The notes under the pieces: generated by a model
Database searches by the model: none
Told to the model about the DNA's origin: nothing
Seen by the model: the letters and a program-made list of their open reading frames with translations, nothing else
NCBI GenBank assembly: GCA_019695035.1
Contig: JAIBAU010000016.1
Span: 1 to 64,000, forward strand
Length of the DNA: 64,000 bases
Origin: Caulobacteraceae bacterium
Lineage (GTDB): Bacteria; Pseudomonadota; Alphaproteobacteria; Caulobacterales; Caulobacteraceae
Direction: 5' to 3'
Translations under genes and position numbers: made by a program
Part shown: positions 9,024-53,136 of the stretch, in pieces
How positions within the stretch are numbered: the first letter of the stretch is position 1
Layout of the letters: every line of letters starts with the position of its first letter

Positions 9024-9201
9024 GGTCATAACCCCTTGTAACCCCGTCACAAGATTCATTGCCTTGATGCAGCACGTCAAGCTTGCAGGCGCGCAACCGA
9101 TCGCGATTACGCACTCGCGCTTGTTTACCCTGTCAGGTAACCGACAACCGGGGCGCGCGCTGGTAGGATGACCTGTCGGGGATGTGTGGAGGAGGCGACG
9201 G

Positions 9202-9764: not shown

Positions 9765-9882
9765 TGGTCTTATCCCTTGCGGCCAATTGTGCGGGACTAA
9801 ACGCCCGAGGGGACGCTTCGTGCCGACTCATGGAATCCTTTCCCGGCGGGACGCGTTTTGTTTTGACCCGCCAGAGGATCCC

Positions 9883-10209: not shown

Positions 10210-10637
10210 AGCTCGCCACCATCGGGTATGAAACGGCCACCCAGCCCCTAGTGATCCAGCGCCTGAAGGATGCCGGCGTGGAGGTGGTGATCGACGTCCG
10301 GGCGGTGGCCGCCTCGCGCAAGGCCGGGTTCTCCAAGACGCTCCTGGCCAACAGCCTGAAGGCTGCGGGCATCGACTATGTGCACCTTCAGAAGCTGGGC
10401 ACGCCCAAACCCGGCCGTGACGCCGCCCGCAACGGTGACATCCAGCGGATGCACGACATCTTCAATGCCCACATGAGCGACCCGGAGCCCCAGATGCAGT
10501 TGGCGGAAGCGCTGGAGCTCGCACGCCGGCGCAAGGCAGCCCTGCTTTGCTACGAAGACGACCACCTTGGCTGTCACCGCTCCATCTTGGCTGACGAACT
10601 GCACGAACGCGCCGGATTCGAGATCGAAAACCTCTAG
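10206..10637 (+). CDS. DUF488 family protein
   Basis: The 143-residue protein matches DUF488 throughout: a start KLATIGYET, IDVRAVAASRKAGFSK, and the signature LLCYEDDHLGCHRSILADEL with a Cys that could be catalytic or metal-binding. The family is rhodanese-like in shape, with unknown chemistry. It is coupled to the preceding gene and followed by a terminator hairpin shared with the convergent gene. Confidence 0.85.
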   Translation: MKLATIGYETATQPLVIQRLKDAGVEVVIDVRAVAASRKAGFSKTLLANSLKAAGIDYVHLQKLGTPKPGRDAARNGDIQRMHDIFNAHMSDPEPQMQLAEALELARRRKAALLCYEDDHLGCHRSILADELHERAGFEIENL

Positions 10638-10656
10638 GGCCGGCGTTCCGCGCGCG

Positions 10657-10694
10657 AAAAAGCCGCCGCAGATCGCTCCGCGGCGGCTTGGTTT
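10657..10694. terminator. Bidirectional intrinsic terminator
   Basis: The arms AGCCGCCGC (10661-10669) and GCGGCGGCT (10680-10688) form a perfect 9-bp stem. An A-run on the left gives TTTTT for minus-strand transcripts, and TGGTTT follows on the plus strand. It lies between two convergent genes and is stronger for the minus strand. Confidence 0.8.
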
Positions 10695-10711
10695 CGTCGT
10701 GTAGGTCAGAG

Positions 10712-11161
10712 CTAGTTGGCGGGTGTCGGCGTCACGGCGTCACGGAAGACCAGCCCGGCGATCTTGCCTTCCGGCGTCAGGGCGATGAACCATACCGTCG
10801 ATCCCCGTTCGGACTGGGCGACGAACTTCAGGGCGCCCTGTTGCGAACCCGCGAAGGTCAGGGTCTTCAGGCGTCCGCCCTGGTTCAGCTTCTCCGCGAT
10901 CGGGTCGAGATTGGCGCGCACGATGTCGGCGAGTTGGGGGACCATGGAATCGTAGTCAGGCGTCTTGGCCATCAGGTCGGCAATGACCTTGCGCAGAATT
11001 CGTTCATGGGCGGCGATCGCCGCCGGGTCCGGACCCGCCGGTTGCTCCGTGGGCAGTGTGGACGCGTCAGGAGCAGTCTGCGCCGCCGCGGGAGACGACA
11101 GCGCCACCAGGGCGGCGGAGACGGCCAGGGCCGCCATCAGCAGGTCGGAGATGAACTTCAT
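10712..11161 (-). CDS. Hypothetical exported protein
   Basis: The 149-residue protein has a clear signal peptide (MKFISDLLMAALAVSAALVA, cleavage near AAAQ), a Thr/Pro linker, a helical segment, and a beta-rich end (GALKFVAQSERGSTVWFIAL). This resembles small domains that report a change in a mean value or respond to stress. Family not recognised. The terminator at 10657-10694 closes its transcript. Confidence 0.7.
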   Translation of the reverse strand: MKFISDLLMAALAVSAALVALSSPAAAQTAPDASTLPTEQPAGPDPAAIAAHERILRKVIADLMAKTPDYDSMVPQLADIVRANLDPIAEKLNQGGRLKTLTFAGSQQGALKFVAQSERGSTVWFIALTPEGKIAGLVFRDAVTPTPAN

Positions 11162-31778: not shown

Positions 31779-33278
31779 TCACCGCCGCCCGGCCGTCTGA
31801 ACGTCGAGCCGCAACACGCCGACCCGGCTGTCCGCAGCTGCCGTAAAGGCCACCTCGGTCTCCACCTGCCGGGCGCTGAAACGCGCATCGGCCGGGGTTC
31901 GGGTCAGCGGATAGGGCCCCTGTTCGGCTTCCGCTCCGTTGGGAAAAGCGCGCGTGAAGAAGCGCACCTGCGCCTCCCCGCGCGTGCGCTCGTCCCCGAT
32001 CACGCCGGACACCGCCATCACCCGATCGCCCGCGCCGATCTCCAGCGGAGCCGAGCGGGCGAAGGGCTGCGCCCCGCTCCAGTCCCAGCCCACCTCGTGC
32101 TCCCAGAGCCGCCCGTCGGGCGCCATCAGCAGCGGGTTCTGGAACACCCCGGCGCTGGCGCCGCAGGTGCGCGCCAGCTGGCCCATCGACCACGTGCCGG
32201 TCCGATAGCACCAGGCCGCATAGCGGTCGTTCTCCAGCGATGCCGCCGACGGATAGTGCCACCAGACCTCGCCGTGGTCGGCGTTGTGCCAGGCGGTCAC
32301 CTTGCTGGCCTGCTGTTCGTTCAGGTCCTGGAACACGTGGTCCGCAATCTCGCAGGGCAGGTCTGCGACCGCCCCGCCGTCGTAGGCGAAGAAGGCGCCC
32401 CGCCCCATCCACACGCAGCGCCCGTCCAACGACACCGCCGCCCCCTTGGCCAGCACGCCGCAGTCGGCGCCCGCGCGCTGGAAGCCGTAGACGGCCACTC
32501 CGCCGAGGTAGGTCGCCGCCCAGACGTCGACGTCCGAGAACACCAGCGTCGCACCGCGAACCCGCCGCCCGCACATCAGCCGACCGGGAGTCTGCAGGTC
32601 CAGGTCGCCGGCCTGGTTGGTCGCCGCCGGCGTCCAGTCGGCGCTGTCGGCCTGGTCGCACCAGGACACGCGCCGGTCGCCAAGGGCGAATATGAAGTTC
32701 TCGGCCGTGACCACGACTCCGCGCAGCCCCGTGGGCGCTGCGGCGATCGGTTGCGCCGCCACCGCTGAGTCCAGAGTCCATTCGTAGAGCTTCCCGTCGC
32801 CCTCGCAGCAGGCCACCAGGTGTTGGCCCCAGGTATCCAGCGTCCAGACGGCGGCCGGCAGGATGTTGTCGTCGTCCAGGCGGGGCTGGCCGTACCCGGG
32901 CGGCGCATTGTAGGCCCCGCCGCCGTAGCCTCCGCCGAGTTCGGCGTCCGGCTTGGATCCGGCGTAGCCGGCCGGGGTGATGTCGAAGCGGCTCCCCGCC
33001 GCATTGAACACGAAGAGACCCTCGCCGCCCGCCGGCGCATTATTGGTTCCGACCGCGGCCCAACGGCTGCCGGCGTTGTCGCGCCAGGTCACCATCGCCC
33101 GCGCCTTGCCGGGCACGGCCGGGGTCGCAGCGTTCTTCAGCCGCCACCCGCCCACGGGCTGCAGGTCCGGCCCGTTCGGCCAGCGCACCAGGTTGGCGGC
33201 GCACCAGCGCCCCTTGGCCTGCCGCGCTGTCCCGTTGGCGTAGACGCCGGGCGGGATCTCCAGGTCGACGTAGGGCAT
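31779..33278 (-). CDS. Phage virion protein, P22 gp10-like (DNA stabilisation / tail hub)
   Basis: The 499-residue protein is rich in beta-strand and Trp/Gly motifs. WRDNAGSRWAAVGTN, YEWTLDSAVAA, WCDQADSADWTPAATNQAGD and SLDGRCVWMGRGAFFAYDGG fit beta-propeller-like stabilisation proteins of short-tailed phages (P22 gp10 group). It would help close the portal after packaging. The start overlaps the preceding stop by one base (TGATG). Assignment rests on pattern and position. Confidence 0.68.
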   Translation of the reverse strand: MPYVDLEIPPGVYANGTARQAKGRWCAANLVRWPNGPDLQPVGGWRLKNAATPAVPGKARAMVTWRDNAGSRWAAVGTNNAPAGGEGLFVFNAAGSRFDITPAGYAGSKPDAELGGGYGGGAYNAPPGYGQPRLDDDNILPAAVWTLDTWGQHLVACCEGDGKLYEWTLDSAVAAQPIAAAPTGLRGVVVTAENFIFALGDRRVSWCDQADSADWTPAATNQAGDLDLQTPGRLMCGRRVRGATLVFSDVDVWAATYLGGVAVYGFQRAGADCGVLAKGAAVSLDGRCVWMGRGAFFAYDGGAVADLPCEIADHVFQDLNEQQASKVTAWHNADHGEVWWHYPSAASLENDRYAAWCYRTGTWSMGQLARTCGASAGVFQNPLLMAPDGRLWEHEVGWDWSGAQPFARSAPLEIGAGDRVMAVSGVIGDERTRGEAQVRFFTRAFPNGAEAEQGPYPLTRTPADARFSARQVETEVAFTAAADSRVGVLRLDVQTAGRR

Positions 33279-34414
33279 CAGGCCGCCACCATGATGGTGA
33301 AGCTGTCCGGGTCGGCGTAGCTGCCCGCGCCGTTCTTGAATTCGACGTTGACGGTGGCCCCGCTGAAGGACGTCACCGTGGCGATCAGGCTCGACCCTGC
33401 CGACACCGCCGTCACCGTGGCCGCCGCCAGGGTCGGGGCGTTGGCCAGGGTGACGACGTAGCGTCCGGTGTTGGGGTGCGAGGCTCCGCTCACCCCCGTC
33501 GAGGCGCCGTTGACCGAGCCGGCTCCGGTCACCACGCCCACGGCGCTCAGCTGCGGCGGCGCGACGCCCAGGGTGGCCCGCATCGCCGCCGCATCCGTGT
33601 CGTCCAGCAGGCCGCGCGCGAAGGCCGTGAGTGTCGTCATCGCCCAGGTCCCCGCCCCGGTCGCGTACGGCGTCCGGTCGGCGGCGCTGGCCAGAGCCGC
33701 GATGGCCGCCAGGTCGACGTCGTGAGCCTGCACGTCGGTTCCGATGCGCAGGCCCAGGGTGGCGCGCTGGGCCGCCGCGTCGACGTCGTCCAGCAACGCC
33801 CGGCCCGCGCTGGTCAAGGGAAAGGTCGCCGCCGTCGTGGCGGTGTCGAAATACAGCCCCCGGTCCGCCGCCTGGCTCAGCCCGCCCAGATCCTGCAGCA
33901 CCGGGTTCAGCGCCGCCAGCGGACCGACCGTCGCGCCGTTGATCTGCACGTAGAGCCCCTGGTCGGTCGTCCACAGATCGCCGTTTCCGAGGTTTGTAGT
34001 CGGCGCGGAGCCGTGCGGCAGGCGCAGGCTGGCGAAGCCGCCGGCGCCGGCCGCCGGCTGCACGGCAGTGATCCGGCCGGTGAAGCTGGCTCCCTCCAGG
34101 AACGCGACGCCCTTCACCGCGCCGTTGAGGCGGAAGTTCAGGCCGGCGGCGGTCGACCACAGGTCGCCGTCGGCAAGGCCCGTGGGCTGCACCCCGTGCG
34201 GCAGGCGAAAGCTGGCCTGTCCGGCCGCGGCCGGGGTGACCCCGACCAGCACACCGGTCAACGGCATGACCCCGCCCCCGGCCTTGGTCTGCTTGCCGCC
34301 CAGCGGCACGAAGAGACCGTCCATCGCGGTCAGCACCGCGTTCAGCTTGGCGCCCCAGCTCGAGGCGTCCGCGCCCAGCTGCGGCAGGTCGAAGTTGTGG
34401 TTGCTGGTCCCCAT
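33278..34414 (-). CDS. Phage tail-fibre-type protein with internal repeats
   Basis: The 378-residue protein begins with MGTSNHNFDLPQLGADASSW, a typical fibre attachment sequence. It has two copies of a LRLPHG / NGDLWTTDQGL module (residues about 50-155) and two of LLDDxDAAAxRATLG (about 205-280). The C-terminus is beta-rich. Such repeats form fibre shafts. It probably contributes to receptor contact. Confidence 0.7.
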   Translation of the reverse strand: MGTSNHNFDLPQLGADASSWGAKLNAVLTAMDGLFVPLGGKQTKAGGGVMPLTGVLVGVTPAAAGQASFRLPHGVQPTGLADGDLWSTAAGLNFRLNGAVKGVAFLEGASFTGRITAVQPAAGAGGFASLRLPHGSAPTTNLGNGDLWTTDQGLYVQINGATVGPLAALNPVLQDLGGLSQAADRGLYFDTATTAATFPLTSAGRALLDDVDAAAQRATLGLRIGTDVQAHDVDLAAIAALASAADRTPYATGAGTWAMTTLTAFARGLLDDTDAAAMRATLGVAPPQLSAVGVVTGAGSVNGASTGVSGASHPNTGRYVVTLANAPTLAAATVTAVSAGSSLIATVTSFSGATVNVEFKNGAGSYADPDSFTIMVAA

Positions 34415-34442: not shown

Positions 34443-34844
34443 TCAGCTGGCGGCCGGCCCGATCAGCCCGTGGCTGCGCAGGGCGGCCAGCACGGTGTTC
34501 AGCGTCGCCACCGCCGTCGCGGTGGTGGCGTTCGGGATCGAAGCCTGCTGGGCCCCCACCACCTTCACCCCGTCCACCTTCAGTTGCCCGCTCGCGCCGG
34601 ACAGCAGCATGGTCGCGTCGTCGAAGGCCACGTGGGACAGCGCGGCCTCGATCGCCGCCTCGGTCAGGGCGCCCGACGTCGCGGACACCGTGACGTCGAT
34701 CCGGTCCTGGGCCGGATTGTCGCTGACCGCGAGGGCGATGTTGGCGCCTTCGATCAAGTTCAGGGTGCGCCGAACGCCCGCCGTCGCCCCGCCCCTGGCG
34801 ACGCACAGCACCTCGCCCGCGATCAGGTGTCGCCTGCTCGTCAT
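34443..34844 (-). CDS. Phage tail-fibre-associated protein
   Basis: The 133-residue protein has beta-type motifs (LNLIEGANIALAVSDNPAQD, RIDVTVSATSGALTEAAIEA) common in short tail-fibre proteins, and a repeat-like end (NATTATAVATLNTVLAALRS). It precedes the fibre gene on the same strand. Precise role not readable. Confidence 0.62.
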   Translation of the reverse strand: MTSRRHLIAGEVLCVARGGATAGVRRTLNLIEGANIALAVSDNPAQDRIDVTVSATSGALTEAAIEAALSHVAFDDATMLLSGASGQLKVDGVKVVGAQQASIPNATTATAVATLNTVLAALRSHGLIGPAAS

Positions 34845-34990
34845 CGATCCCTCCGGCCGCCGGGCGGCGAACGTCCGCGCCCTGGCCCGAGGCCGGCGGA
34901 TCGCACCCGCGAAGATTGCGCTATGCTCGTCCCGACGAGCCTGATTCTGCGGAGGCTGGCCTTTGCCGCCTCAACGGGGGAAACTGGTCC

Positions 34991-35236
34991 ATGAGTACGG
35001 ATGCACGTCTTCGCTTCACCGCCGCCGAACTGTCGGCGGAACTCCCGTTTGAGGAACCTTCGATGGCCAACAGCGACCAGCGCCTGCTTGCTCTAGCAAG
35101 GACCCCGGATCCAATGGAGGAACTTCGGGTTAAGGTAGACCGTGCAGAGCTCAACGAAAGGCTTGCCCAAGCAAATGTTCGCATCGCAGTTGCGCGAGCC
35201 GAACTTGCCGACCTGCGTTCGCGGGCAAGAAGCTAA
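34991..35236 (+). CDS. Small helical hypothetical protein (cargo)
   Basis: The 81-residue protein (MSTDARLRFTAAELSAEL...) is helical and charged. Its DNA is visibly less GC-rich than the neighbouring phage genes, like the epimerase-like gene just after it. GGGGGAAA lies 8 bases upstream. It is probably part of the same acquired segment. Confidence 0.5.
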   Translation: MSTDARLRFTAAELSAELPFEEPSMANSDQRLLALARTPDPMEELRVKVDRAELNERLAQANVRIAVARAELADLRSRARS

Positions 35237-35284
35237 TCGCGTGGCACCCTACTCTAGGTTGGCGTACTTGGTCCTGCTGGACCC

Positions 35285-36547
35285 ATGCAGACAGTAGCCA
35301 TAGCCGGCCTTGGCAGAGTTCCAGCCGCGCGCCGAGAAGCGTACGAATTCTATGGCATGGTTCCGTTGGCCGACGGCTTTCCGGGGAAGCAGACTGAGCG
35401 CGGGGTAGTGCCTCATCCCATATTTGGCACTTACCTTCTGCGCGACATGCTGACCGTCTTTGACAAGACCGGTCAAAACCTTGAGGACGCTAGGAAGCTC
35501 GCAGACGCTGCGATCAGCCGAATGCGGCCGCGCGGGGACGCACTCATATTCTGGTATGGGGACGACGGCCTCTCGCAACTCGACGGCACCCATTACTCCG
35601 GGCTCACACAAGCGCGTTACCTTCAGCCACTCATCAGCGTAGCTAAAGCAACCGGCGAAGCTAAATACTTTGAAGCGGCGCGCCGCGTGTTCCAGAGTCT
35701 GAAGATTCCCGCCTCGGAAGGGGGAGTCCATCGCCTCCATAAGGGAGACAGCGTCGTCGAGGAGTATGCAGGCAAAGTTCCAACCTACGTGCTGAATGGC
35801 TGGACTACAGCCATTCTGGAACTGTTTGGTTATGCAACGTCATCGGGCGACCAAGAGGCCCAGCAGTTCGCACTGTCAAATGTCCGTGCACTGAAAGCAC
35901 TATTGCCACTTTACGACGTACCGGATTTGGCGAACAGCAGGTACCAGCTTGTCGGCTCCACCGTTCATCGTTTCCGCTCAAAGAGCCCCATCAAAGCTCT
36001 GAGTGGCTTTGTTAGGGTCGGCGAAGATATTTTTCCGTTTGAACACGGCAATTCCGGAAACCCTCGCTGGACCAATCAAATTCGTCAATCGGTACCAAAA
36101 CAGTTCCGGTTAAACACCCTGTTGTCTAGGGCATTTACTTGCAAGATCGTCGTTCGGTTCAAAGCCGAGAGCGATTGCACGCTCCGATGGGACGTCGCTC
36201 CCGGGCGCTATCAGACCCAAGGCACAGCAATCTATCCCGACGGGTTCACCCCAGTGAAGGAGATCGCTGCCAAAGCCGGCCTCAACACGATCGTTCTCGA
36301 TCCACCGTGGGAGAGCTTAAACCTGATCGGATATCCTACGAATTTCCGGAAGGTTATCGCTGGCAAGCGCTACAATGTTTACCACTGGCTCCACGTTAGG
36401 AACTTGGAGCGTCTCTTCGAAATCACCCACGATTTCGAGATCGAAGAGTGGGCTCATAAGTGGCGAGGATATGCGCGCAAGTGGCCGGAGTTGTATCCTG
36501 AGTCCGACATCGCGTACTCCGCACCTGGGGCAGGAATTTCTTGGTGA
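35285..36547 (+). CDS. D-glucuronyl C5-epimerase-like protein
   Basis: The 420-residue protein contains the C-terminal C5-epimerase signature EEYAGKVPTYVLNGW (159-173) followed by AILELFGYA and ANSRYQLV (216-223). An (alpha/alpha) toroid-like helical domain spans residues 60-230, then a beta-rich end. Relatives convert glucuronic to iduronic acid in polysaccharides. No signal peptide is seen. Base use is less GC-rich than its neighbours and it opposes the phage genes, so it looks acquired. It abuts the spike gene with no space between stops. Confidence 0.72.
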   Translation: MQTVAIAGLGRVPAARREAYEFYGMVPLADGFPGKQTERGVVPHPIFGTYLLRDMLTVFDKTGQNLEDARKLADAAISRMRPRGDALIFWYGDDGLSQLDGTHYSGLTQARYLQPLISVAKATGEAKYFEAARRVFQSLKIPASEGGVHRLHKGDSVVEEYAGKVPTYVLNGWTTAILELFGYATSSGDQEAQQFALSNVRALKALLPLYDVPDLANSRYQLVGSTVHRFRSKSPIKALSGFVRVGEDIFPFEHGNSGNPRWTNQIRQSVPKQFRLNTLLSRAFTCKIVVRFKAESDCTLRWDVAPGRYQTQGTAIYPDGFTPVKEIAAKAGLNTIVLDPPWESLNLIGYPTNFRKVIAGKRYNVYHWLHVRNLERLFEITHDFEIEEWAHKWRGYARKWPELYPESDIAYSAPGAGISW

Positions 36548-37288
36548 CTACAAGCGCGCGATAAGTAATGCGTTCAATTCAGCGATGGCTTGGCTGCTAG
36601 GCGTGCCGCCAAGAACGAGCACTTGGTGAAGGGTACCTCCAAAGAAGCCATTTGCGGACGCTGCAGTGGTTGCACCGGCCGTGACGTTGCCCGAGACAGT
36701 TGCTAGAGACTGGCCCCCAACCGGTCCGGCAACCCCGTCAAAATGCGGGGTGCACGCAGCGTCCACAAAACACGCACGCACTAGATGGCGTCCGAGCCAG
36801 ATTCCCGACGTGTTTATGGTGCTAGTCCCTTGGGCATTTAGTCCGGCGCGGTTGTCTGCGCTTGTCACCGTCCGGCGCACTAACCGCGTGGCAGTGGATC
36901 CGCTCCCGTAGCCAAAAGCCGTCGTTGCGGCGGTTAGATTTTTGTCTTGGTCTTGTGCGCCAGCAATCCAGATCTCGGACGAAGCGTTACCCACAGGAAA
37001 CGTCCCGGGCGTCGCATTCAACCGCAGAAAATCATCCACCCCGTCAAACGTGACCCCCGCGCGTCCGTTGAAGCTAGTCGGGCTCCAGGTCGGGCGGGCG
37101 GCGTCGGTGGCCTGGGTCAGGTCGTAGCCGCCGATCTCGTCCTTCCAGGACGACACCCCCGAGCCTGTCACCGTGATCTTCGAAGCGCTGTCGGCGTTCC
37201 ACCAGCCGACCAGCAACCCGCCCAGGATGGTCAGGGGCGTCGGCGCGATCGCGCCGCCGCCCGGCGTCCCCACGCCGACCCCGATCAT
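36548..37288 (-). CDS. LamG/ConA-like phage spike protein, apparently chimeric
   Basis: The 246-residue protein has an N-terminal anchor (about 1-30), then a concanavalin-type domain (LVGWWNADSASKITVTGSGV, VSSWKDEIGGYDLTQATDAA, GVTFDGVDDFLRL, FFGGTLHQVLVLG). Such domains bind surface glycans. Codon use shifts near residue 70: the anchor is GC-rich like the phage genes and the rest is AT-richer like the epimerase gene. That suggests a swapped receptor-binding end. It overlaps the base protein stop by 4 bp. Confidence 0.72.
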   Translation of the reverse strand: MIGVGVGTPGGGAIAPTPLTILGGLLVGWWNADSASKITVTGSGVSSWKDEIGGYDLTQATDAARPTWSPTSFNGRAGVTFDGVDDFLRLNATPGTFPVGNASSEIWIAGAQDQDKNLTAATTAFGYGSGSTATRLVRRTVTSADNRAGLNAQGTSTINTSGIWLGRHLVRACFVDAACTPHFDGVAGPVGGQSLATVSGNVTAGATTAASANGFFGGTLHQVLVLGGTPSSQAIAELNALLIARL

Positions 37289-37536
37289 CGCAGGCCCAGG
37301 ATGCCGGCGGCGGTGGTGCCCGTGGCCAGCACCTTCTTGCCCTGGATCGGCAGCACCGATCCCGAGGGGGCGTTGCGGAACGTCACCGCGACGCCGGTGA
37401 CCGAGTTCTGGTCCTCGGGCAGCACCGCCACGTCCCCGCCCACGCCGACGTACAGGGCGGTGAAGTTCACCCGGTTGGCGTCCGACGGCGTGATGGCGAA
37501 GGCCCCCGCCGGAAGAACCGCATTCTGAAGGGCCAT
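37285..37536 (-). CDS. Phage spike-base protein
   Basis: The 83-residue protein matches a small conserved virion protein: MALQNAVLPAGAFAITPSD, YVGVGGDVAVLPEDQ, VTFRNAPSGSVLPIQGKKVL. It is the usual partner just before spike genes and probably forms the trimer base. It overlaps the spike gene by 4 bp. Confidence 0.72.
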   Translation of the reverse strand: MALQNAVLPAGAFAITPSDANRVNFTALYVGVGGDVAVLPEDQNSVTGVAVTFRNAPSGSVLPIQGKKVLATGTTAAGILGLR

Positions 37537-37540: not shown

Positions 37541-38176
37541 CTATCCTTTCGTGATGTCGAAGTCGTCCGCGCCCCCGCCCGGGCCGGGGACGTCGGTCCG
37601 CAGCGGCGCCTCGCGGCTGCGCGCCTCGCGGTTGTTGATGGCGTCCACCGCGGCCTGGTAGCGGTCCTGCCAGCGCATCGCCTGCGCCTCGTCCGCCGCC
37701 CACAGCGCCGCCTCGACCAGCGCCGCGGCCAGGTAGGCGTCGGGGTGGTTCGAGAGCAGCCAGTTCGTCGGCTCAGCCTCGGACAGCGCCAGCCGGCGCA
37801 GGAAGCGCAGCACCCCGCTCGTCGCCGCCGCGCAGGGCCGCTCCAACGCCAGGGTCTCCCCCTCCACCGCCCAGCAGGCGGGTGCACCCGCCGTCGCGCC
37901 GTCGCCCAGCGGGCCGGCGACGCGCCGCAGGCGGGCGCGCCCCTCCGGCCCGTCGAGCCACAGGGCCACCGGCGCCAGGTAACCGGCCGGAAGGGCTGCG
38001 GTGCGGGCGCCGGCGACGAAGGCGACCGGCGCCTCCGCCTCCATGACCCGCAGCCGCAGGTCCCGGTTCAGCCGCGCTTCGCCGAGCGTGACCAGGTCGG
38101 CGGCAGGCAGGTCGGAGCGGTCGAAGCTCCACGCCCCCACTGCAGCCGTCAGCTCCTCATAGGCGCCGATCGCCAT
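37541..38176 (-). CDS. Phage head-tail adaptor protein
   Basis: The 211-residue helical protein has LVTLGEARLNRDLRLRVMEA and YLAAALVEAALWAADEAQAM, a pattern typical of adaptors between portal and tail (P22 gp4 position). A linker rich in Gly/Ala precedes the C-terminus. It lies between coat and spike-base genes. Assigned by pattern and position. Confidence 0.72.
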   Translation of the reverse strand: MAIGAYEELTAAVGAWSFDRSDLPAADLVTLGEARLNRDLRLRVMEAEAPVAFVAGARTAALPAGYLAPVALWLDGPEGRARLRRVAGPLGDGATAGAPACWAVEGETLALERPCAAATSGVLRFLRRLALSEAEPTNWLLSNHPDAYLAAALVEAALWAADEAQAMRWQDRYQAAVDAINNREARSREAPLRTDVPGPGGGADDFDITKG

Positions 38177-38185: not shown

Positions 38186-39391
38186 CTAGTTGTTGGCCAG
38201 GCGGCAGGCCAACTGGGGCCGCAGCGTCTTGTAGCCGTACAGGATGTCCAGGCGCGTCGGGAACTTGTCGGCGTTGATGTCGTACTGCCGCACGATGCGC
38301 ATCGAGATCCCGTCGTAGACCTCACGCGCCGCCCAGTCGACGCCGCGCGGCATCACCAGGTCCGCGGTGGCGAAGGTGAAGGCGTCCTCCTGGAACAGCA
38401 GGCTCTGCCCCACCGTGGACCCTGCGGTCGAAGCGAACAGCAGGGGTGCGTTGTCGGCCGGGACCGCCGTCACGTTCTGGCGCGGGCCCGAAGCCACGAT
38501 GGCCGGGCTGACCGCGATCGTCGCCTGGCCCGAGCCGTTGGAGTTCACATCCGAGCCCGACACCACGAACTGCTGGCGCACGCCGAGGTCCGCCTTGGTC
38601 TCGGGGTGCACCGCGTTCACCCCGGTGATCTCGAAAATGTCGCCCACCTTCAGCAGGCCGGTGACGCTGTTGGTCCAGCCGTCGGTGACGATCTGCGTCG
38701 CGCCGTCCGCCGTGGCGCCGTTGATCAGCGGCGTGCCGCCCCGCGCGCCGGCGGTATGGGTTCCCAGATGGGTGTTCTCGTAGAATTCGAAGCCGGCCGT
38801 GCGGCCCATCGAGCCTTCGCGGTACTGGCGCGCCAGCCCGTCCTCGTCGTGGAATAGGCCTTTCAACGCGTCCACCAGGTCGGCGTTGTCGGTGGTGTTG
38901 AGCAGCGCCGTGCGGTTGGCCGGCGGGGTCAGGCTGTCCTCCAGCTTCTTGCGGCCCGCCAGCAGCCTGGCGAAGGTCAACGCCTGTCCGTGGTTGTTGA
39001 CCTGCTGATAGACCTCCCGCCGCATCGACAGGGCGTCCGCCTCGATCGCCGCGGCCAGCACGCTGACCGCCGGCTCCAGCACCCGCTTGGAGAAGTCGTC
39101 CAGGCTCAGGGACAGCTCGGCCGACGAGAAATTCATGTCGACGCCCTTCTGGGTCGTCACAGCCAGGTCCAGCGAGGTCTCGGTCGTGTCTTGCGCCGAC
39201 AGCGCCGCGCCGGAGCGCACCGTGTACTGGTTGGGAAGTCGGATTTTCACTTTCTCGCCGACCTTCGCGCCGGACCGGGCGAAGCTCTCGTCGTACTGGC
39301 GATTGATCGCGCCGATGAAGTTGCACTTCTGGTGCAGGATCCGCAGCGCCTCTCGGGTCACCGCGGTGGGGGAAAGGATGGAGTTCGCCAT
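38186..39391 (-). CDS. P22-type major coat protein
   Basis: The 401-residue protein begins MANSILSPTAVTREALRILH and shows the gp5-type pattern of HK97-fold coats: NRQYDESFARSGAKVGEKVK, RSGAALSAQDTTETS, an insertion-like beta region at about 230-310, and AAREVYDGISMRIVRQYDIN near the end. This is the structural protein of the capsid. Start adjoins the scaffold stop (TAGATG). The full-length frame suggests it is not decayed. Confidence 0.85.
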   Translation of the reverse strand: MANSILSPTAVTREALRILHQKCNFIGAINRQYDESFARSGAKVGEKVKIRLPNQYTVRSGAALSAQDTTETSLDLAVTTQKGVDMNFSSAELSLSLDDFSKRVLEPAVSVLAAAIEADALSMRREVYQQVNNHGQALTFARLLAGRKKLEDSLTPPANRTALLNTTDNADLVDALKGLFHDEDGLARQYREGSMGRTAGFEFYENTHLGTHTAGARGGTPLINGATADGATQIVTDGWTNSVTGLLKVGDIFEITGVNAVHPETKADLGVRQQFVVSGSDVNSNGSGQATIAVSPAIVASGPRQNVTAVPADNAPLLFASTAGSTVGQSLLFQEDAFTFATADLVMPRGVDWAAREVYDGISMRIVRQYDINADKFPTRLDILYGYKTLRPQLACRLANN

Positions 39392-40696: not shown

Positions 40697-41797
40697 ATGA
40701 TGCGGACGTGCCAATTCGAAACAACGCCGTGGGCCGAGGTCGGCGATCAGGACCGCAGCGCCTGGGCGCGCTTTCGTGACCGCCGCCCCGAGCTGGCTTC
40801 GCCCTACCTGTCCATCGAGTGGGCCGACGCGGTGCAGCGCGCCCGCGGCGACCTTCAGTTGCTGCGGGTGTTCCAGGACGGCCGCCTCTGCGCTCTGCTG
40901 CCCTACCATCGCGGACGGCTCGGCGCCCTGCGCCCCGCGGGAGGACCCCTCAACGACGGCCAGGGATTCATCGCCGAGCGCGGCGTGGACATCTCCCCTC
41001 GCGAAGTGGTCCGCCGCCTCGGCTGCCGCGGCCTCCGCTTCGCCGACGTTTCGCCGACCGATCCCTGCTTCGGCGACCACGGCGTGCTCCGGGACGCCTT
41101 CAGCCTCGACCTGTCGCAGGGCTACGACGCCTATCTCTCGCGTCAGTCGAGGGCCCAGCCCAAGGCTTTCCGCAACCTGCGCGCCCGCACCCGCCGGCTC
41201 GACGGCCACGAGGTCTCGCTGCGTCTCGACGACCGAGATCCGGCCACCCTGGATCAGCTTCTCGAGCTCAAGCGCGACCAGTACCGCCGCACCGGCCAGA
41301 TCGACGTGTTCGGACACGACTGGACCCGCAACCTGATCCGGTCGCTGTTCGAGACGCCGGCCGGCTCCGGCCTGCGGGGTCGGCTCAGTTCGCTGTGGAT
41401 CGACGGGGCCCTGGCGGCCGCCCATTTCGGGCTGCAGGAGGGCGAGATCCTGCACTACTGGTTCCCGGCCTTCGACCGGGCCTTCGCCGAGTTCTCGCCC
41501 GGCCACATCCTGCTTCAGCGCCTCGCCCGCGCCCTGCCCGAGGAAGGCGTGCGCCGCATCGACCTCGGCGGAGGAGACTATCGGTTCAAGGCCGAGTTCG
41601 CCGACCAGCGCCGACCGGTGGTCTCGGGCGTGGTCCGCAACGCCAACCTGCTGGGTTCACTGGTGGCCGCCGCCCAGGGCGTGGCCGCCGTCTCGTCCCG
41701 CCTCCCGCTCGGACCCGTATCCCGCCTTCCGGTGCGCGCCTTGCGCCGCGCCGACCGCTACCTGTCCTTCCACGAAGCCGGCCAAGCCGCCGCCTGA
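40697..41797 (+). CDS. GNAT-family acyltransferase (FemAB/CelD-like)
   Basis: The 366-residue protein follows the Acetyltransf_6 layout: a first half (EWADAVQRARGDLQLLRVFQ, GRLCALLPYHRGRLGALRPA) and a second with SRQSRAQPKAFRNLRAR, GRLSSLWIDGALAAAHFGLQ and YWFPAFDRAFAEFSPGHILL. Relatives act in surface polysaccharide or cell-wall modification. The next gene starts 10 bases on with its own GAGGAGA, so the two are an operon. Confidence 0.8.
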   Translation: MMRTCQFETTPWAEVGDQDRSAWARFRDRRPELASPYLSIEWADAVQRARGDLQLLRVFQDGRLCALLPYHRGRLGALRPAGGPLNDGQGFIAERGVDISPREVVRRLGCRGLRFADVSPTDPCFGDHGVLRDAFSLDLSQGYDAYLSRQSRAQPKAFRNLRARTRRLDGHEVSLRLDDRDPATLDQLLELKRDQYRRTGQIDVFGHDWTRNLIRSLFETPAGSGLRGRLSSLWIDGALAAAHFGLQEGEILHYWFPAFDRAFAEFSPGHILLQRLARALPEEGVRRIDLGGGDYRFKAEFADQRRPVVSGVVRNANLLGSLVAAAQGVAAVSSRLPLGPVSRLPVRALRRADRYLSFHEAGQAAA

Positions 41798-41807: not shown

Positions 41808-42590
41808 GTGTTCGACGGATCGTTCGAAAACCCGACCGCCCTGTTCCTGCTGCTGTTCGCCGCCATGACCGCCGGGCCGGCCGCCATGGCCGCCCTCGTC
41901 GCGCCCGGACGCCCCCTGCGCCTTGGCGAATTCCTGGGAGGAGGCGCGGCGATGCTTGCGCTGTGGGGCCTGCTTGTCCCGCTGAACGTCTACAACCACG
42001 CCCGGGGTGAATCGCTGGTGCTGCTCTTCGGCGCCGAAGCCAATGACACCGGCCTGGTCGAGTACGGCACCGTCGCCCTGCTTCTGACCGCCGCCGGCCT
42101 GGCCGCCTCGCTGGCCCGGACCGCGCGCGGTCTGCAGGGGCTCCTGTATGGCCTCCTCGCCGTCGCCGCCTTCCTGGTCGCGGGCGAGGAAATCAGCTGG
42201 GGCCAGTGGATCTTCCACTGGGCCACGCCCCAGGCCATCGACGCCCGCAATCTCCAGCACGAGACCAACCTGCACAACTTCCTCCCGCCGGGCTTCTGGG
42301 GCGACGCCTACGCCGCCGTCGGCTGGGCCCTCATCGCGGCCGTCATCGCCCTGCGTTTCACGGGTCTCAACGACCGCCTGCGCTTCCAGCCCTTTGACGC
42401 GGTGAGCAACGGGCGCGCGGTCCCCGCCCTGTTCCTGGGCGCCGGCGTCCTCATGCAGCACCCGTTCTTCCAGGAGGTCTCCGAGCTGGCCCTGGCCACG
42501 GCCATCGTCTTCGCCCTGGTCCAGCTGAATGGCGCACGCCGCAGGCCGGCCGCCGAGCCGGCCGGGCAGCTCCAGCCTGTCGCGGCCTGA
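41808..42590 (+). CDS. Polytopic membrane protein with EEISWGQ motif
   Basis: The 260-residue protein has about seven hydrophobic helices. A conserved-looking loop holds GEEISWGQWIFHWATP followed by RNLQHETNLHNF near residues 125-155, i.e. clustered Glu, Gln, His and Asn that could bind metal. I have seen this motif in uncharacterised membrane proteins but do not know a function. GTG start with GAGGAGA 6 bases upstream; paired with the GNAT gene. Confidence 0.72.
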   Translation: MFDGSFENPTALFLLLFAAMTAGPAAMAALVAPGRPLRLGEFLGGGAAMLALWGLLVPLNVYNHARGESLVLLFGAEANDTGLVEYGTVALLLTAAGLAASLARTARGLQGLLYGLLAVAAFLVAGEEISWGQWIFHWATPQAIDARNLQHETNLHNFLPPGFWGDAYAAVGWALIAAVIALRFTGLNDRLRFQPFDAVSNGRAVPALFLGAGVLMQHPFFQEVSELALATAIVFALVQLNGARRRPAAEPAGQLQPVAA

Positions 42591-42608: not shown

Positions 42609-44501
42609 TCACCCGGCCTGAGACCGGGCGGCCAGCCGCTCGGTCTGGGCCTGGAAGGCCTCGATCTCCAGGCGGCGGGTCTCCAGTTGCAGCCGCGCCA
42701 GGTCGAGCTGGCGCGTCGACTGGCTCGCCGCCAGGGCCTGGGTGGCCTGCTGCAGCTGGGCGGTGAGTTGCTGGACCTGCTGCTGCGCGGCGATGACCTG
42801 GGGATCCGGCCCGACCGTTCCGGGAGGCAGCATGGCCTGAAGCCGACGGGCGATCTCGGCCGACCCCGGCCAGTCCAGATTCCGTGCCAGCAGGTCGCCG
42901 ACCACCGGGGCGGCCTGGGGGAAGGCCCGCACGAAGGTCAGCATCTGCTCGGCGGCGTCCTGCCGGCGCGTGGTGTAGCTGGGTCCGGCCTCGACGGTCA
43001 GGTCGTAGGCGCCGACACCCAGATCGTAGACCCTCTGCAGCGTCCGTCCGTCCGCGCCGGTCACGGCGGTGGGCTGATTCACCGCCACCACCTGGGGCGC
43101 GCCCTCCGGTCCCAGCACGCGGATCATGCGGGGCGTCGAATAGACCTTGGGGATCAGGTCGATGAGGATCCGCCCGGCGTGGCGGATCGACCGCGACAGG
43201 TTGTCGACGAAGTGGAACGTCGAGACATCGCCCTCGCGCTGGCGGGCGGTGATGGCCCGGCCCGAGGTCTCGTTGGAGGGCGCGCCCAGCGCCGCGTCAT
43301 GCAGGCCCATGATCGCCTTCATGTCGTCCGAGGCGTTCATCGCTTCCTGCAGGGCGCCGGCAGGCGGGCCGTCAAACGCCTGGCGCTGCGGCGGCTGGGG
43401 GCCGTCGTATTCGATGAAGGGGTGGCTTTCGGTGTTGGCGGTGGACCACTTCTCCACATCCGTGTCGAAGGCGCCCTTCGGGCCAATGAAGGGCGCCTTG
43501 GGGCTCAGCGCGACCAGTTCGGTCGAGGCGGTGCGCCAGTAGTTGAACATCCGCTGTGGATCCTTGGCGTCGCGCACCAGGGACTTGAACACGCGCTTGC
43601 CCTCGACGGTCACCTCCTCGCCGAAGACCGGCACGATCGGGATAAAGCGGCCCGGCCAGTCGCAAGTCTCGAGCACCTCGGCGCCGGTCAGCAGGCGCTG
43701 ACGCACCCGGCTGCCCCTGACCACGCGCTCGGCGACGACGCTCAGGCCCTGGGCCGCGAACTGGTCCCGGCGCGCCCGCCACACCGATTCCTCCACCGCC
43801 TGTCCGTCCGAAAGGCCCAGCAGCCGCGCGGTCGTCTCCTCCCGCGTCCAGTACTCGGCGACCAGCACCCGGTCTCCATCCATCCAGGGTCCGCCCAACC
43901 CCTGGTAGCTGGATCGCCAGTCCACCGCCTCGGCGCCCTTGAAGCGCTTCTCGAAGACCGCCCGCGGCATGGCTTCGGTGACAAACGCCAGGTTCCAGTC
44001 CGAGCTGTCCGCCGCCGTGGAATAGGGATCGGCGTAGACCGTGAAGGGATCGGCGACGCGCTGGATGCGGATGGTCTGCTCGAACCCGCATTCGCGGGCG
44101 TAGTCCAGCCCGATGCGAAAGTACCCCAGACCCCCGGTCACGGCGCACTCCAGCGCGGTATCGTAGGCGACGTCCGCGTCCGAGGCGTACTCGATGTTGC
44201 GGATCAGGCCGCTGAAGATTTCGGCCGTGGCCACGTCCGCGCCGCTGTCGGCGGGATGCACGGTGATGGCGGGCTTGTTCTGGCGCGCATCGTTGACGAC
44301 CTGGCGGATGAAGGCCGGAAGCCGATTGATGGTCAGGCAGGGTCGGACCTCGCGACGGCGCTTGGCCAGCACCTCGCGCGGCCACTGTTCGCCCAGCCGC
44401 GCGAACCTGAGATCGTCCAGCGCCTCGGCCCGGTTTTCGGCCTCGGCGTCGATGCACAGCTGGAAGGCCTCACGGGCCTCCTGCAGGAGGGTTTCGGTCA
44501 T
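42609..44501 (-). CDS. P22-type portal protein
   Basis: The 630-residue protein has an acidic N-terminus (DDLRFARLGEQWPREVLAKR), CLTINRLPAFIRQVVNDARQ, VTGGLGYFRIGLDYA, RVADPFTVYADPYSTAADSS and, later, ETSGRAITARQREGDVSTFH, all P22 portal features. A Gln-rich C-terminal coiled coil follows (QQVQQLTAQLQQATQALAAS), as in the portal barrel. The ring of twelve would be the DNA entry channel. No terminase gene stands next to it. Confidence 0.87.
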   Translation of the reverse strand: MTETLLQEAREAFQLCIDAEAENRAEALDDLRFARLGEQWPREVLAKRRREVRPCLTINRLPAFIRQVVNDARQNKPAITVHPADSGADVATAEIFSGLIRNIEYASDADVAYDTALECAVTGGLGYFRIGLDYARECGFEQTIRIQRVADPFTVYADPYSTAADSSDWNLAFVTEAMPRAVFEKRFKGAEAVDWRSSYQGLGGPWMDGDRVLVAEYWTREETTARLLGLSDGQAVEESVWRARRDQFAAQGLSVVAERVVRGSRVRQRLLTGAEVLETCDWPGRFIPIVPVFGEEVTVEGKRVFKSLVRDAKDPQRMFNYWRTASTELVALSPKAPFIGPKGAFDTDVEKWSTANTESHPFIEYDGPQPPQRQAFDGPPAGALQEAMNASDDMKAIMGLHDAALGAPSNETSGRAITARQREGDVSTFHFVDNLSRSIRHAGRILIDLIPKVYSTPRMIRVLGPEGAPQVVAVNQPTAVTGADGRTLQRVYDLGVGAYDLTVEAGPSYTTRRQDAAEQMLTFVRAFPQAAPVVGDLLARNLDWPGSAEIARRLQAMLPPGTVGPDPQVIAAQQQVQQLTAQLQQATQALAASQSTRQLDLARLQLETRRLEIEAFQAQTERLAARSQAG

Positions 44502-45493: not shown

Positions 45494-48400
45494 TCACCAG
45501 CGCCAGCGCGCGCCCAGCCGCGCCGAACCACCGTCGGCCTCGCCTCCGAAGTTCCAGTCCACGCCGACCGAACCCTCCAGCCCGTACCACGTCATGGCCG
45601 TCATCCCGAAGCGGACCTGGCCGAAGGCGCCGGGCGGGGTATCGGTAATCGAGAATCCGGTCGCTCCCGTGGTGAAGGTCATGGTGTTCTCGCCCGCGAA
45701 CTCCTCAATGGCGTAGACCCCGAGCGAAGGAATGAGGATCACATCGCCCGAGCCCATGGTCGCCCCGAAACGCACCCCGGCCCGGCCGAGCAAGCTGTCG
45801 GCGTCGCCAAAGTCGATGGTCGCGCCCGACGTGCTGAACCGGTCCACGTCCGTGGTCGTCCAGGCCAGCGCCGCCATCGGCTCGACGAACCAGGCGCCCG
45901 GTTCGCCGAAGCGGAAACCGAGCTCCCCTGACAAGCCGAGCGATCGGGCGTCGAAGGTCTGGAAGTCGGTCACGCCGGTCAGGTTGGCGTCCAGGCTGTT
46001 GAAGTCACCCTTGGCCAGGCCGTTCAGGAAAAAGCCGCCGCGGGACCAGCTGGCGTAGGCGCCCACGTTCCAGCCCTCGATGTCGAAGCTCTCGCCTCCG
46101 ACGTCGTAGCGCGTCTCCTGCTGCACGAAGCCGCCGGTCAGGCCCCACACCATGTCGCCGACCCGATTGTCGACGCCGAACTGAAGGCCGCCCCAGGTCG
46201 AGCTGTGGCTCTGGTTCTCGACGAAGGTGACGCCGCCCAGGACGAAGGTCTGCTCATCGGCGAAGCCGGTGTCCCCGCCGTGCGCCTGCATCCACATTTC
46301 CCAGCCGTCCGATCGGCCGCTGGACATCCCTTCGCCCATGGTCCGGGCCGAGCCGCTCTCGTCGGAATCGCGCATCTCGGAGAAGCGGTCCGAAACGGCG
46401 TTGTTCGAACGCTGCCAGAAGTCCTGCAGCGCCCCCGGCACGCCCAGGATGCGGAAGGCGGATTCATCGGGCAGGCCGACGATCAGCCAGTTGTCGGCGG
46501 CCGCATCGAACACCAGCCGGTATTCCACCATGCCGGTGTCCACCGACTCCATGGTGAACTCGTCGCCAGTCTCCGAAGCGAAGGCGGAGTCGACCACCAG
46601 GATGCCCGCCAGGTTGATGGCGCCCGGCGTCGCCGCCAGGACCGCGTTCGGCATGATCGTGGTCACCCCGGTCGCCTGGGCGATCACGATGCGGTCCGCG
46701 CTTGAGCCCGGCCCGCCGAACTGGACGTCAAGCGCGAGCTCGGAGCCCGCGCCGCCTGTGAAGGTCGTGCTCGTCATCGACAGCACGTCCCCCACCTGCG
46801 CGTCGACGCCCGAGACCCGTCCAGTGTTCGTGAAGGTCTCCAGGCTCGAGAAGGTTGTGGTCGCCGCCGATCCGTTGAAACGGCTGAAGCCGACCACCCC
46901 GCTGTTGCTCAAGCTGTCGGTCCCGCCGCCGAAGGTCGAGGCGCCGTAGGCTTCGAACTGGCCGCTGTTGTCGAAGCTGTCGCCGTTCCCGGTCAGACTC
47001 ACCCGGCCAAAGATCGAGGCCCGGTTGTCGATGGAAACCGCCCCGCCTGCGGCCTCGATGGCCAGGCCGCTGTCGGCGTAGATCAGGCCGTGGTTCTCGA
47101 TCGCGCCACCGATCCCCGACACCATCACGATCGCGGCGCTGTCGCCAATGATGGAGCCGTCCTCGAGAACCACCGAGGCCAGCTCGTCGGCGCCGACCCG
47201 AACCCCGACCCCATCGGCCGAGAACACGTCGCCGTCGACGATCACCGTGGCGTCGTGGCTGAGGAAAACTTGTTCCGTCTGGCCGTCCTGGCGGGCGCCT
47301 TGGCCGTATCCGCTAAAGGCGTAGGCGTAGGCGACGACGCCGTCCGAGCCATAGCCGTAGGCCGCGACATCGCCCGCAATCACGGTCACGTCGGCGCCGG
47401 CTTGCGCCAGGACCCCGTGCGCTGCGTCGCCGTAGGTCTTGATCCGTCCAGCGTCGACCATCACCGCGCCGTACAGGCTGTAGGCCTCGATGCCGTGGCC
47501 CTGGTCGCCGTAAGTCAGGATTTCGCCTTCGCCGTTGTAGACCTCGATCTCCTCGCCGGCGTGAGCGAAGATTCCGTCGCCGCCATAGCCTGCCGCCGTG
47601 ATCAACCCGGTGTTCACGACCTCGGTCCGACCGATGATCGACCAGGCGAAGATACCGTCCGCGCCGAAGCCGTCCGCGTAGATCTCGTCGCTGCTCGACA
47701 CATAGGTCGTGCCCGATGCGCCATAGGCGCGCAGCCCGTTGCCGTTGACGGCCTGGATTTCCCCGGTGGCGGTCAGGATGACCCCGATGGACCCGCTCAC
47801 CGACACGGCCGAGCCTTCGGCAGCGTACACGTCGATCACCTCGGCCGAGCCCCGGCCGAAGACCGACGTCACGTACACGCCGTGGTCGTCGCTGAAGACC
47901 GAGCCGTCCGAGACGAAACTGGCATCGTCGCGGCCGAAAATCTGCACTGCGAAGCCCGTGTCGGCGTAGAAGAAGACATCCCCGGTCGTGACCGAGACCT
48001 CCCCCTCCGAGGATAGCGCCCGCACGCCATACGACGAGAAAAGCGCGTCGCCGGAGCTGACCGTGGTCGCCCCGTCGATGTCCACGGTCACGTCGGAATA
48101 GGCGCGTACGTAGGCGCCCACCGCGCGGCCGGCGCCCCCGACCGACGCCGTCAGGTCGCCCCCGACGGTCACCGAGGCAGCGCCGTCCGAATTGACGGTG
48201 ATCCCTGCCACAAGACCGGTACCTGCCGCGCTGGTCAGGTCGCCGTCGACGGTCAAGTCGACGCTGTCGCCCGTGGCGCTCGCGCCGAAGGCGAAGCTTG
48301 CGCCGTAAGCCGACACGTCGCCGGTGACGTGAGCCACGATGTCATCCGCGACAAGGTTCAGGCCGCGGACATCCGAAGTCCCCTCTGCCAGGACATCACC

Positions 48401-51400
48401 GTCGACGTAGATGTCGATGTCCCCCTGGCCCGGGGCGGACAAGACGCCCACCGCGCTGCCGCCGTCGGCGTGAATGTCCCCGTGGACGTCCAGGTCGACG
48501 CCATCGGTCATCGTCAACCAGACTCCGACCGCCGGGCCGGAATCGGTCACCGCCGTCAGCGCGCCGGTCTCCACCGTTCCGTACGCGCCGGTCACTTTCA
48601 CCGCGACGGCCCGGGTCGCGCCATAGGCCCCGATATCGCCGCCGACCGCGATCGCGGCATCGCCGGAACCCGAGTTGGCATAGACCCCGTAGGCGCGGCT
48701 CCCGTCCGCCTCGACGTCGCCTTCCGTGTCGATGGTCTGGTCGCCGGTTGTGTGCACGTAGGCTCCGAACGCGTCGCCCCCATCCGAGGTCGCCGTCAGC
48801 GCCCCTGTTTCCAGCGTCGCAGAGGCCCCGAGGATGTGCACCGCCGCCGTCGTGCCGGCGCCGTAGGCCTCCACGTCGCCGGCCTCGACGGTCGCCGCGC
48901 CGGCCAGGCTCTCGAGATACAGGCCGTAGGCTTGGCCGTAGACGCTGGCCGCCGTCACGCTGTGTACGGTGACGTCCAGCGCCCCGTAGGACTCCGCCTT
49001 GACTCCATAGGCGTCGACGTAGTTCGAACGGACGTCGATGTGGCCGCCCACGGTGACACTCGCCGACTGCAGCGCCGGCGGCGGCGCGTCCAGGCCCGAG
49101 GTTTCGGACACGCGGCCGTAGCCATAGGTCGGCTGCTCTTCCGGCGGCTCGAACGAGACCAGCACCCCGTAGGCGGAATCGTCCCCCGTCGCGCTGATGT
49201 CGCCGGTCACCTCGATGTCGACCAGACCGTAGGTCGCCGACCCCACGGCCCCGAAGGCGTCGGCTCCGCTCGAAATGACGGTGATGTCCCCGTCGACGTA
49301 AATCTGCGCGCCCGCGCTGTAGCTGCTGGCCGTCGCGCCGGTCCCATCGTCCGCGGCGCTGACGTAGATGTCGCCGGTCACCGAAATGGAGCCGAGGCCC
49401 GTGTCGCCGTAGGCCAGCAGGGCCACGCCGCTGGAACGCTCGGAGGTCACCGTCAGGTCGCCCTCGACAATGATCGACGCCGTATCGCCAAGCGCCGTAG
49501 CGCCGGTCGCCGAGTCACGACCCTCGATCACCAGGTCGCCGGTCAGGTCGATGCTGGCCTGCTGGCCGGCGCTGGCGAAGACGCCGGCGGCGAATCCCTG
49601 GTCGGAGGTCACCGTCACGTCGCCCGCCCCGGTGATCGAAACCGAGCCGTACTGCGACTGCGCCGTGAACCCGAACGCCTGCCAGTAGCCGTCGATCGTG
49701 CTTTCTCCGACCGTCAGGTCGATGTCGGCGCCCTGGATCCCGTTGACCGCGGCCCCGGTCGCGAAGTTCGCATTCACCTCGATTCCGCCCAGGGCGATGA
49801 CGGAATCGTCACCCGCGACCGCCCAGAATGCGGCTCCCCCATTCTGGGCCGTCACCGAGATTGATCCCATGTAGGCGTCGACCGACCCGGTGTACGAGGA
49901 CAGTTCAACCCCTGTGACATCTCCGCCGGAGACGATCAGGTCGCCGTCGACATTGAGATAGAGGTCGCCGTTCACGGCGCGCATCCATATGCCCGTCGCC
50001 CGGCTGCCCGAAACGTCGAGGTCGCCGTTCACCGTCAGTTCGATGTCGCCGTAGCGCGACAGCATGCGGAAGCCGCGGGCGTAAAGGCCGGCGTCGACTT
50101 CCGTATCGCCGTTGATCGTGGCCGACAGGTCGCTGTTGGCGTTCATTTCAGCCGCCGAGGCGGTGCCGAACTGGCCAGTTGCGACGACCTCGATGTCGGC
50201 GTTCACCGTGACCACGGCCGAGGCGTCGTTGTCGGCATAGTTGGTGCCGATCGCCAGACCCTTCGCGCTGAAATACGAGCTGGCGTAAACGTCGCCGTTG
50301 ACCTCGACGGTCACCAGCCCGGTCGCCGTGCTGGCGTTCAGCCCTGCCGCGCTCGACCATCCGGTCGCCGACAGGGCGCCGGTCGTCACCGTTGCGTCAG
50401 TGTAGCCGAACACGGCTACCCCCGAGGCGTAGTCGTACTTGCTGTAAATATCCACGTCGCCGGTCGTGACCTCGGCGTAGCCCGTCTGCGACAGGATCAC
50501 CACGCCGCCGCTGCCCGACAGCGAGTCCAGCGTCACATCGCCCACATCGACCAGGGCGTCGCCGCCGTAGGCTACGCCCGAGATGCCCAGCGAAGACCCG
50601 TGCACGTCGCCACCGTAGATGGCCAGGTCGTCCCCGGCGCGGGCGAACACCGCGAATGTGGTTGACCCGTAGGCGCTGACATCGTCGAAGCTGATGTCGA
50701 TGTCGCCGCCGTTGCTGTCGGCGTGAATTCCGAACGAGAAGTCGCCTTCCGTGGTCACGGAGCCCACATCGACCGTGACCGTGCCCGAGCCGTAGCTGGC
50801 CACGTAGACGCCGGTCGCAAAGTCACCTTCGGTATGGACATAGCCCGAAGCAATCGCGGTGGCGTCCGTGTTGCCGAACACCCAGACGCCGTCGGCCTCG
50901 TAGCCGCTTGTGTGCACGTCGGTCACCGACGCGTAGACCACGCCCGCCGCGAAGCTGCGCACATAGACGCCGTCGCTGCTGTTCCCGGCCGTCGAGATCA
51001 AGCCGCTCGCATAGACGGCCTGGTCGGCATTGCCGGCGACATAGACGCCCTTCGAGCTCGTGCCCTCGGTGGTCACGTCGTCCACCGTCACCGCGTCGGA
51101 GCCCGATCCGAAGTTGCGCACGTGCACCCCGTCGGCCGCCGCGCCGTAGGTCGTCAGGGCGCCGGTCGACTCAACAACCACGTCGGCGTCGGCGTAGACC
51201 CGGATCGCATCCGCGCCCGAGCCGTTGGTCGTCACGCTGCCGACCGTGCCGTCGACGGTCGCGGCCGCTCCGTAGCCGCGCAGCAGCACCCCCGCGCCCG
51301 AACTGCTGTCGACATCGATCGATCCGGTCGCATCCAGATCGATGGCGCCGTTGCTCCGGACGATTATCCCGTAGGCGTTCGAGCCCTCGACGTAGATGTC

Positions 51401-52861: not shown

Positions 52862-53136
52862 TTGGACCCCCAACCTAGGCCTGCAACAAGCTTGGCCGCG
52901 CTACTTTCTTAGCCGCGAGGGAACAATTTGACTAGGTGTAACTATCAGATTTGGCGGCGCTTATCGCCGTTCATACAATTCCCTTCAAGGGTGCGCGGTT
53001 CTCGTTTGACGAGTGTTCCCGCCCACCGGCCTGACATGCGAGGGGAACAGGGAAGCATCCGAGGCGTCTGACCGGGCGGCTCCGCTGAGATCTCAGTCGC
53101 CGCGGAGGATGCTGCGCCGCCGCTGAGCGTTCGGCG

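Follow-up and report, generated by a model that had tools for sequence, protein, structure and literature searches.

A patch of AT-richer DNA among the P22-type virion genes of a phage-derived element is probably one allele of an interchangeable slot for surface-glycan-modifying enzymes, set among the receptor-binding genes. Its cargo would be a uronosyl C5-epimerase of the heparan glucuronyl kind, acting at the level of the polymer and altering the glycan to which the phage binds. The element covers about 16 kb, from roughly 28.5 to 44.5 kb on a contig of 66.8 kb, and we refer to the whole 64-kb stretch of DNA analysed as the window. The genes and features that concern us are the following.

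31779..33278, minus strand: virion structural protein (phrog_3287, E=3e-67), 3' border of the variable interval, syntenic in relatives
33278..34414, minus strand: tail-fibre protein, GC-rich (phrog_24210, E=1.6e-15)
34443..34844, minus strand: 133-aa protein adjoining the patch, GC-rich (weak PHROGs matches only)
34911..37053, no strand: AT-richer patch between maximum-likelihood change points, right edge inside the spike gene
34991..35236, plus strand: small ORF of 81 aa, which may not be a gene
35285..36547, plus strand: C5-epimerase-family protein, 420 aa (PF06662), inverted relative to the virion genes
36545..36550, no strand: abutting convergent stops of epimerase and spike
36548..37288, minus strand: ConA/LamG-type jelly-roll adhesin (the spike), 246 aa (phrog_10356, E=8e-9)
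37285..37536, minus strand: tail-fibre-like protein, 83 aa (phrog_12296, E=3e-11)
37541..38176, minus strand: head-tail adaptor of SU10 type (PF24175, E=5e-25), 5' border of the variable interval
38186..39391, minus strand: P22-type coat protein (PF11651, E=6e-34)
40697..41797, plus strand: Acetyltransf_6 (GNAT) protein (PF13480, E=8e-37), inverted, between portal and coat
41808..42590, plus strand: membrane-protein-like ORF adjoining the acetyltransferase, without Pfam match
42609..44501, minus strand: P22-type portal (PF16510, E=4e-201)

A foreign patch that ends inside the spike gene

A two-breakpoint maximum-likelihood fit over 30-42 kb placed the edges of the patch at 34911 (34887-35091) and 37053 (36990-37095). 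G+C is 0.571 between these edges and 0.712 beyond them, and the fit gains 78.6 in log-likelihood. This agrees with the first-pass annotation of the sequence, which had put the change in base use at about 34.9 and 37.07 kb. Among 2-kb segments, the one of lowest G+C lies 5.4 s.d. below the remainder of the 64-kb window. Codon use is likewise non-uniform, in that third-position G+C drops within the spike gene, from 0.96 over residues 1-73 (flanking virion genes, 0.90-0.95) to 0.60 over residues 74-246, with 0.62 in the epimerase gene. These data support the patch being foreign DNA that comprises the 3' part of the spike gene together with the epimerase gene, and its contiguity is compatible with a single exchange event. 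No direct or inverted repeats longer than 9 bases were found at the patch edges, so there is no transposon or att signature at the patch, and a promoter scan of the patch returned nothing above shuffles. A 41-bp match elsewhere in the same genome (contig C19) lies inside an unrelated chromosomal gene and was set aside as chance. The small gene formerly counted as part of the patch could not be upheld: ORF 34991-35236 has no match in Pfam or NCBIfam and only chance-level matches in PHROGs, and no relative of it was found adjoining the epimerase homologues.

The epimerase and spike genes are convergent, tail to tail, and their stops touch without a gap, as first described: the TGA of the epimerase (36545-36547) abuts the TAG of the spike (minus strand, 36548-36550). 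At its other end, the spike gene begins 4 nt before the preceding phage gene has ended (37285-37288), which indicates that the 5' part of the spike belongs to the phage operon. Its relatives are full-length viral proteins of 31-38% identity. The predicted model (pLDDT 85.4) is a single jelly-roll domain that begins near residue 18 and takes up the rest of the protein; the best Foldseek match is the cyanopodophage Pan3 tailspike (9vyh), at 13% identity and a TM of about 0.6, and ConA/LamG-type modules from various other proteins come next. As the spike matches no Pfam family at E<1, the curated LamG profile included, we call it LamG-type by its fold and its phage homologues and not as a member of Pfam LamG.

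The composition break falls at about residue 78, in the conserved stretch RPTWSPTSFNGRAGVTFDGVDD, and therefore cuts through this single domain. The earlier picture of a phage-like anchor carrying a foreign tip consequently stands as a shift in composition between the two parts of the gene, while an anchor domain and a tip domain find no support in the predicted single-domain model. Identity to relatives is higher over residues 22-78 (37-56%) than over residues 79-246 (25-35%). This fits recombination inside a conserved segment between two genes of one family better than a new tip domain joined to an old anchor domain.

Another genome of the same bacterial family (locus L066) carries a homologous spike, 37% identical over residues 22-245, without an epimerase. 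There, a beta-helix tailspike gene and then an Acyl_transf_3 gene come after that of the LamG-type spike (7421-11032), and the acyltransferase recurs with 100% identity over 355 residues in a viral contig (L072), the only cargo protein that we found at viral LamG-type loci. A full-length spike relative that sits by an acyltransferase means that spike and epimerase are not an obligate pair. The first-pass annotation had named relatives with the full spike, the same tip and no epimerase gene as what would speak against it, and half of that description is found here. Overall, its foreign patch and its epimerase family hold, whereas separate anchor and tip domains and an obligate pair are not supported.

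Family, fold and relatives of the epimerase

The 420-aa product matches PF06662, the C-terminal catalytic domain, with E=1.5e-21 (77 bits, cut-off 23.3). In the PDB, its sequence alone matches the solved zebrafish and human heparan-sulfate glucuronyl C5-epimerases (Glce), and as a profile it does so with E of about 1e-17. The AlphaFold model has a mean pLDDT of 91.8, and all eight best Foldseek PDB matches are Glce; by VIA-align, the comparison with Glce gives a Z of 23.6 over 252 residues and the next fold family 16.2. The catalytic residues of human Glce are E499, Y500, N510, Y560 and Y578 (PMC13308652), and E160, Y161, N171 and Y366 of the window epimerase correspond to E499, Y500, N510 and Y578. 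Y366 faces position 488 of the human chain, which is F in the substrate-bound structure 6i01 and Y in 6hzz, while Y220, which falls outside the HMMER-aligned segment, is by position the likely equivalent of Y560. By profile, catalytic residues and predicted fold, the protein is thus a member of the PF06662/D-glucuronyl C5-epimerase fold family. This bears out its original description as epimerase-like and, for the catalytic tyrosines that structure prediction was to address, gives a Glce-like fold with Y161 and Y366 present and Y220 probable. Compared with Glce (human 6hzz, zebrafish 4pw2), it shares the fold of the catalytic domain and the aligned E, N and Y residues, but is shorter (420 aa against 511-516 residues in the solved chains) and only about 18% identical.

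In an alignment of 14 sequences (the window protein and 13 bacterial homologues), E160, N171 and Y366 are invariant and Y220 nearly so; the column of Y161, equivalent to human Y500, holds Y, F, W, S or K. This variation suggests that part of the bacterial family may do other chemistry. The window enzyme can be likened in its putative activity class to the glucuronyl C5-epimerase of Bermanella marisrubri RED65, the only bacterial one identified (PMC13308652), and would probably flip uronic-acid sugars inside finished chains. It has no evident signal peptide, nor do several of the homologues, while some begin with hydrophobic leader-like segments; its missing leader suggests that it acts in the cytoplasm.

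We regard it as very improbable that the gene product degrades polymer during infection, as a helper of a virion depolymerase. Such a role would suit a gene that adjoins an adhesin, and the alpha/alpha-barrel fold is common to glycoside hydrolases, but in both structure and sequence the epimerases match far better than anything else, and the gene reads against the virion operon.

Near-full-length homologues (33% identity) lie on Limimaricola and Paracoccus plasmids, and an alignment-based contig scan found 13 further homologues of 26-38% identity in bacterial genomes. A single-sequence scan of genome contigs returned no epimerase relatives, and neither did a pattern scan of 2.9 million viral contigs. 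A search of relatives, class and phylum for the epimerase or PF06662 found it only in its own genome, one other member of the class and one other member of the phylum. On both plasmids, an ABC-2 export permease directly follows the epimerase homologue, with nucleotide-sugar dehydrogenase and UDP-GlcNAc 2-epimerase genes nearby. A WecB-type gene lies within the fetched flanks of 10 of 15 homologue loci and KpsT/KpsE-type genes in several, while BLAST with the phage structural genes of the window found none of these genes there. The homologue loci are polysaccharide loci, and the window gene therefore most likely came from a capsule-type locus in some bacterium of lower G+C.

An association of this family with a phage adhesin is also found in Bradyrhizobium phage ppBeUSDA76-1, where a PF06662 protein (E=1.2e-44; gene at 8572-9729 of L005, annotated as hypothetical) is encoded directly downstream of a beta-helix tailspike. 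As in the window, a C5-epim_C gene adjoins a phage adhesin gene. In contrast to the window epimerase, this protein has 385 aa and an apparent signal peptide, its gene lies on the same strand as the tail genes, and the two are about 27% identical over 160 residues only. Given this distance and the direction of the gene, PF06662 enzymes have probably joined phage adhesins more than once.

The variable cargo interval in related clusters

A coat-protein search of 199 genomes of the same bacterial family gave matches in 20 others, and 19 of the loci were fetched. All 19 hold the coat gene with the SU10-type adaptor, and 17 the phrog_3287 protein. The interval between adaptor and phrog_3287 gene contains fibre genes and varies from 1.8 to 6.2 kb. 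By our own classification, on which all cargo counts rest, glycan-type genes occupy this interval in 13 of the 18 readable related clusters. They encode class I and FkbM methyltransferases, GT4 and GT2 glycosyltransferases, TPR/GT9-like proteins, and Wzy_C and EpsG polymerase-like membrane proteins. Such genes number at least 19, and 16 of these read against the virion genes. Their median third-position G+C is 0.83, against 0.915 for the fibre genes (Mann-Whitney p=1e-5); most cargo methyltransferases range from 0.57 to 0.74, with an exception in L032 at 0.90, and a GT4 gene common to five clusters looks adapted in composition. As a control, 129 downstream genes showed no glycan-type family among the 25 commonest of their 43 families, that is, none with more than one member; this region includes host genes, and its zero in the Fisher test is not exact.

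The epimerase itself is in none of the 19 related loci, which hold different enzymes at the same slot. The proposed pairing of a glycan-modifying enzyme with receptor-binding genes survives in kind, through the other glycan enzymes at the equivalent position, but not as a fixed pair. MBOAT and AlgX-type acetylation genes lie between coat and adaptor in two clusters; these MBOAT and AlgX-like SGNH genes, at 2290-5975 of L032 and in the matching region of L039, are inverted. In the window cluster, the Acetyltransf_6 gene at 40697-41797 and its neighbouring membrane-protein-like ORF possibly form a second glycan cargo site.

The same survey bears on what the slot enzymes act upon. An epimerase that modifies virion glycans, as a decoration of the adhesin, and not the host surface, would account for the position of the gene, next to adhesin genes within the late structural region, and for the methyltransferases and GT4 enzymes that relatives carry at the slot. 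We nevertheless think this distinctly unlikely: the epimerase homologues belong to cellular polysaccharide loci with ABC exporters, the relatives also hold Wzy_C, EpsG, MBOAT and AlgX-type genes acting on exported polysaccharides, and the cargo is mostly inverted.

The epimerase gene lies among P22-type virion genes of a phage-derived, possibly temperate element, yet the contig yielded no tyrosine integrase, and the portal has no terminase next to it. The element is thus not a complete prophage and may be a remnant. An 8.3-kb host contig (C10, L170), apart from the window element, carries a gene 30% identical to the terminase-like protein of the relatives. Alternatively, the epimerase gene could be foreign DNA that is simply carried along in a prophage remnant as it decays, its link to the spike not being under selection. 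This reading draws on the reduced state of the element and on the homologous spike that lacks an epimerase. Still, we consider it rather unlikely, as the 420-aa frame is intact with its catalytic residues kept, and glycan enzymes recur at the same slot in so many relatives. An interchangeable slot for enzymes that alter the bound surface glycan is the reading that we prefer.

In ten genomes of the family, the P22-type structural cluster lies near hisD, in several of them with murA, DUF2239, DUF2948 or Maf genes (loci L028-L046 and L160-L166). The coat proteins show a mean identity of 0.75, not far from the 0.81 of hisD, and the two correlate weakly by rank (0.34, a value that 46 of 999 permutations equalled or exceeded). 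BLAST with the four integrases of the host itself found none in the relatives' loci, except for a weak match in L033. It is possible that the element is domesticated or GTA-like. A more speculative extension, to which we give little credence, is that an integrase-less P22-type structural cassette has been kept vertically at a fixed chromosomal place in this bacterial family, with rapidly exchanged adhesin-linked capsule-modifying enzymes, the uronosyl C5-epimerase among them. Particles of a domesticated or GTA-like kind would then diversify jointly with the host coat to which they bind.

Candidate host substrate, proposed mechanism and known conversion systems

A candidate substrate can be named from the gene content of the host. 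Its capsule cluster (contig C28, L157-L158) holds wecB and UDP-ManNAc dehydrogenase equivalogs, GT4 glycosyltransferases, KpsE/T/M homologues, two KpsC/KpsS-type proteins and two heparinase II/III-like proteins. On contig C9, a UDP-glucose 6-dehydrogenase-like (Ugd-like) gene, with best equivalog hits below their cut-offs, lies beside pseudaminate genes. Together, these genes make it plausible that the host produces a uronate-containing, ABC-exported capsule on which the epimerase could act.

Under the slot reading, the cargo probably arrived along with the changed part of the spike, through recombination within the conserved segment of the jelly-roll gene. The epimerase would be expressed from the resident element and act in the cytoplasm on the capsule or LPS chain of the host before ABC export, inverting a uronic acid at C5 (GlcA to IdoA, or perhaps ManNAcA to GulNAcA). 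The altered glycan would then change binding by this or by competing phages, as serotype-converting genes do, either hiding the old receptor from competitors or yielding a glycan preferred by the exchanged spike.

For Sf6, O-acetylation is known to block the phage's own tailspike and superinfection (PMC9558356), and the same logic of receptor alteration has been proposed for Kapi1 (PMC8787464). By analogy with Sf6 oac, P22 gtrABC and Kapi1, the window system may represent a phage-borne enzyme that alters the surface polysaccharide bound by the phage; its protein family and the loci of its homologues favour a role in surface-glycan modification. In contrast to Sf6 oac and P22 gtrABC, which acetylate or glucosylate and lie next to int-attP, as Shigella serotype-converting genes usually do (PMC3851460), the window gene sits inside the structural genes, between adaptor and tail genes, and is of the uronosyl C5-epimerase kind. 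We propose that this is a form of serotype conversion that is new in its chemistry and in having its slot linked to adhesin genes. In a literature search, with subscription papers outside its reach, no paper connected glucuronyl C5-epimerases to phage cargo.

The lysogenic-conversion genes known so far decorate a surface glycan with acetyl or glucosyl groups. A C5-epimerase would reshape a backbone sugar of the finished uronate chain, which phage lyases and lectins should read differently. An adhesin-linked slot with many alternative glycan enzymes also makes the link between receptor binding and receptor change testable across one set of clusters, and offers further candidates for bacterial iduronate-forming enzymes. 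Finally, upstream of the portal lies a 2459-aa ORF (45494-52873) that, although it has no match in PHROGs, begins with an N-terminal segment like the leader of an autotransporter or adhesin.
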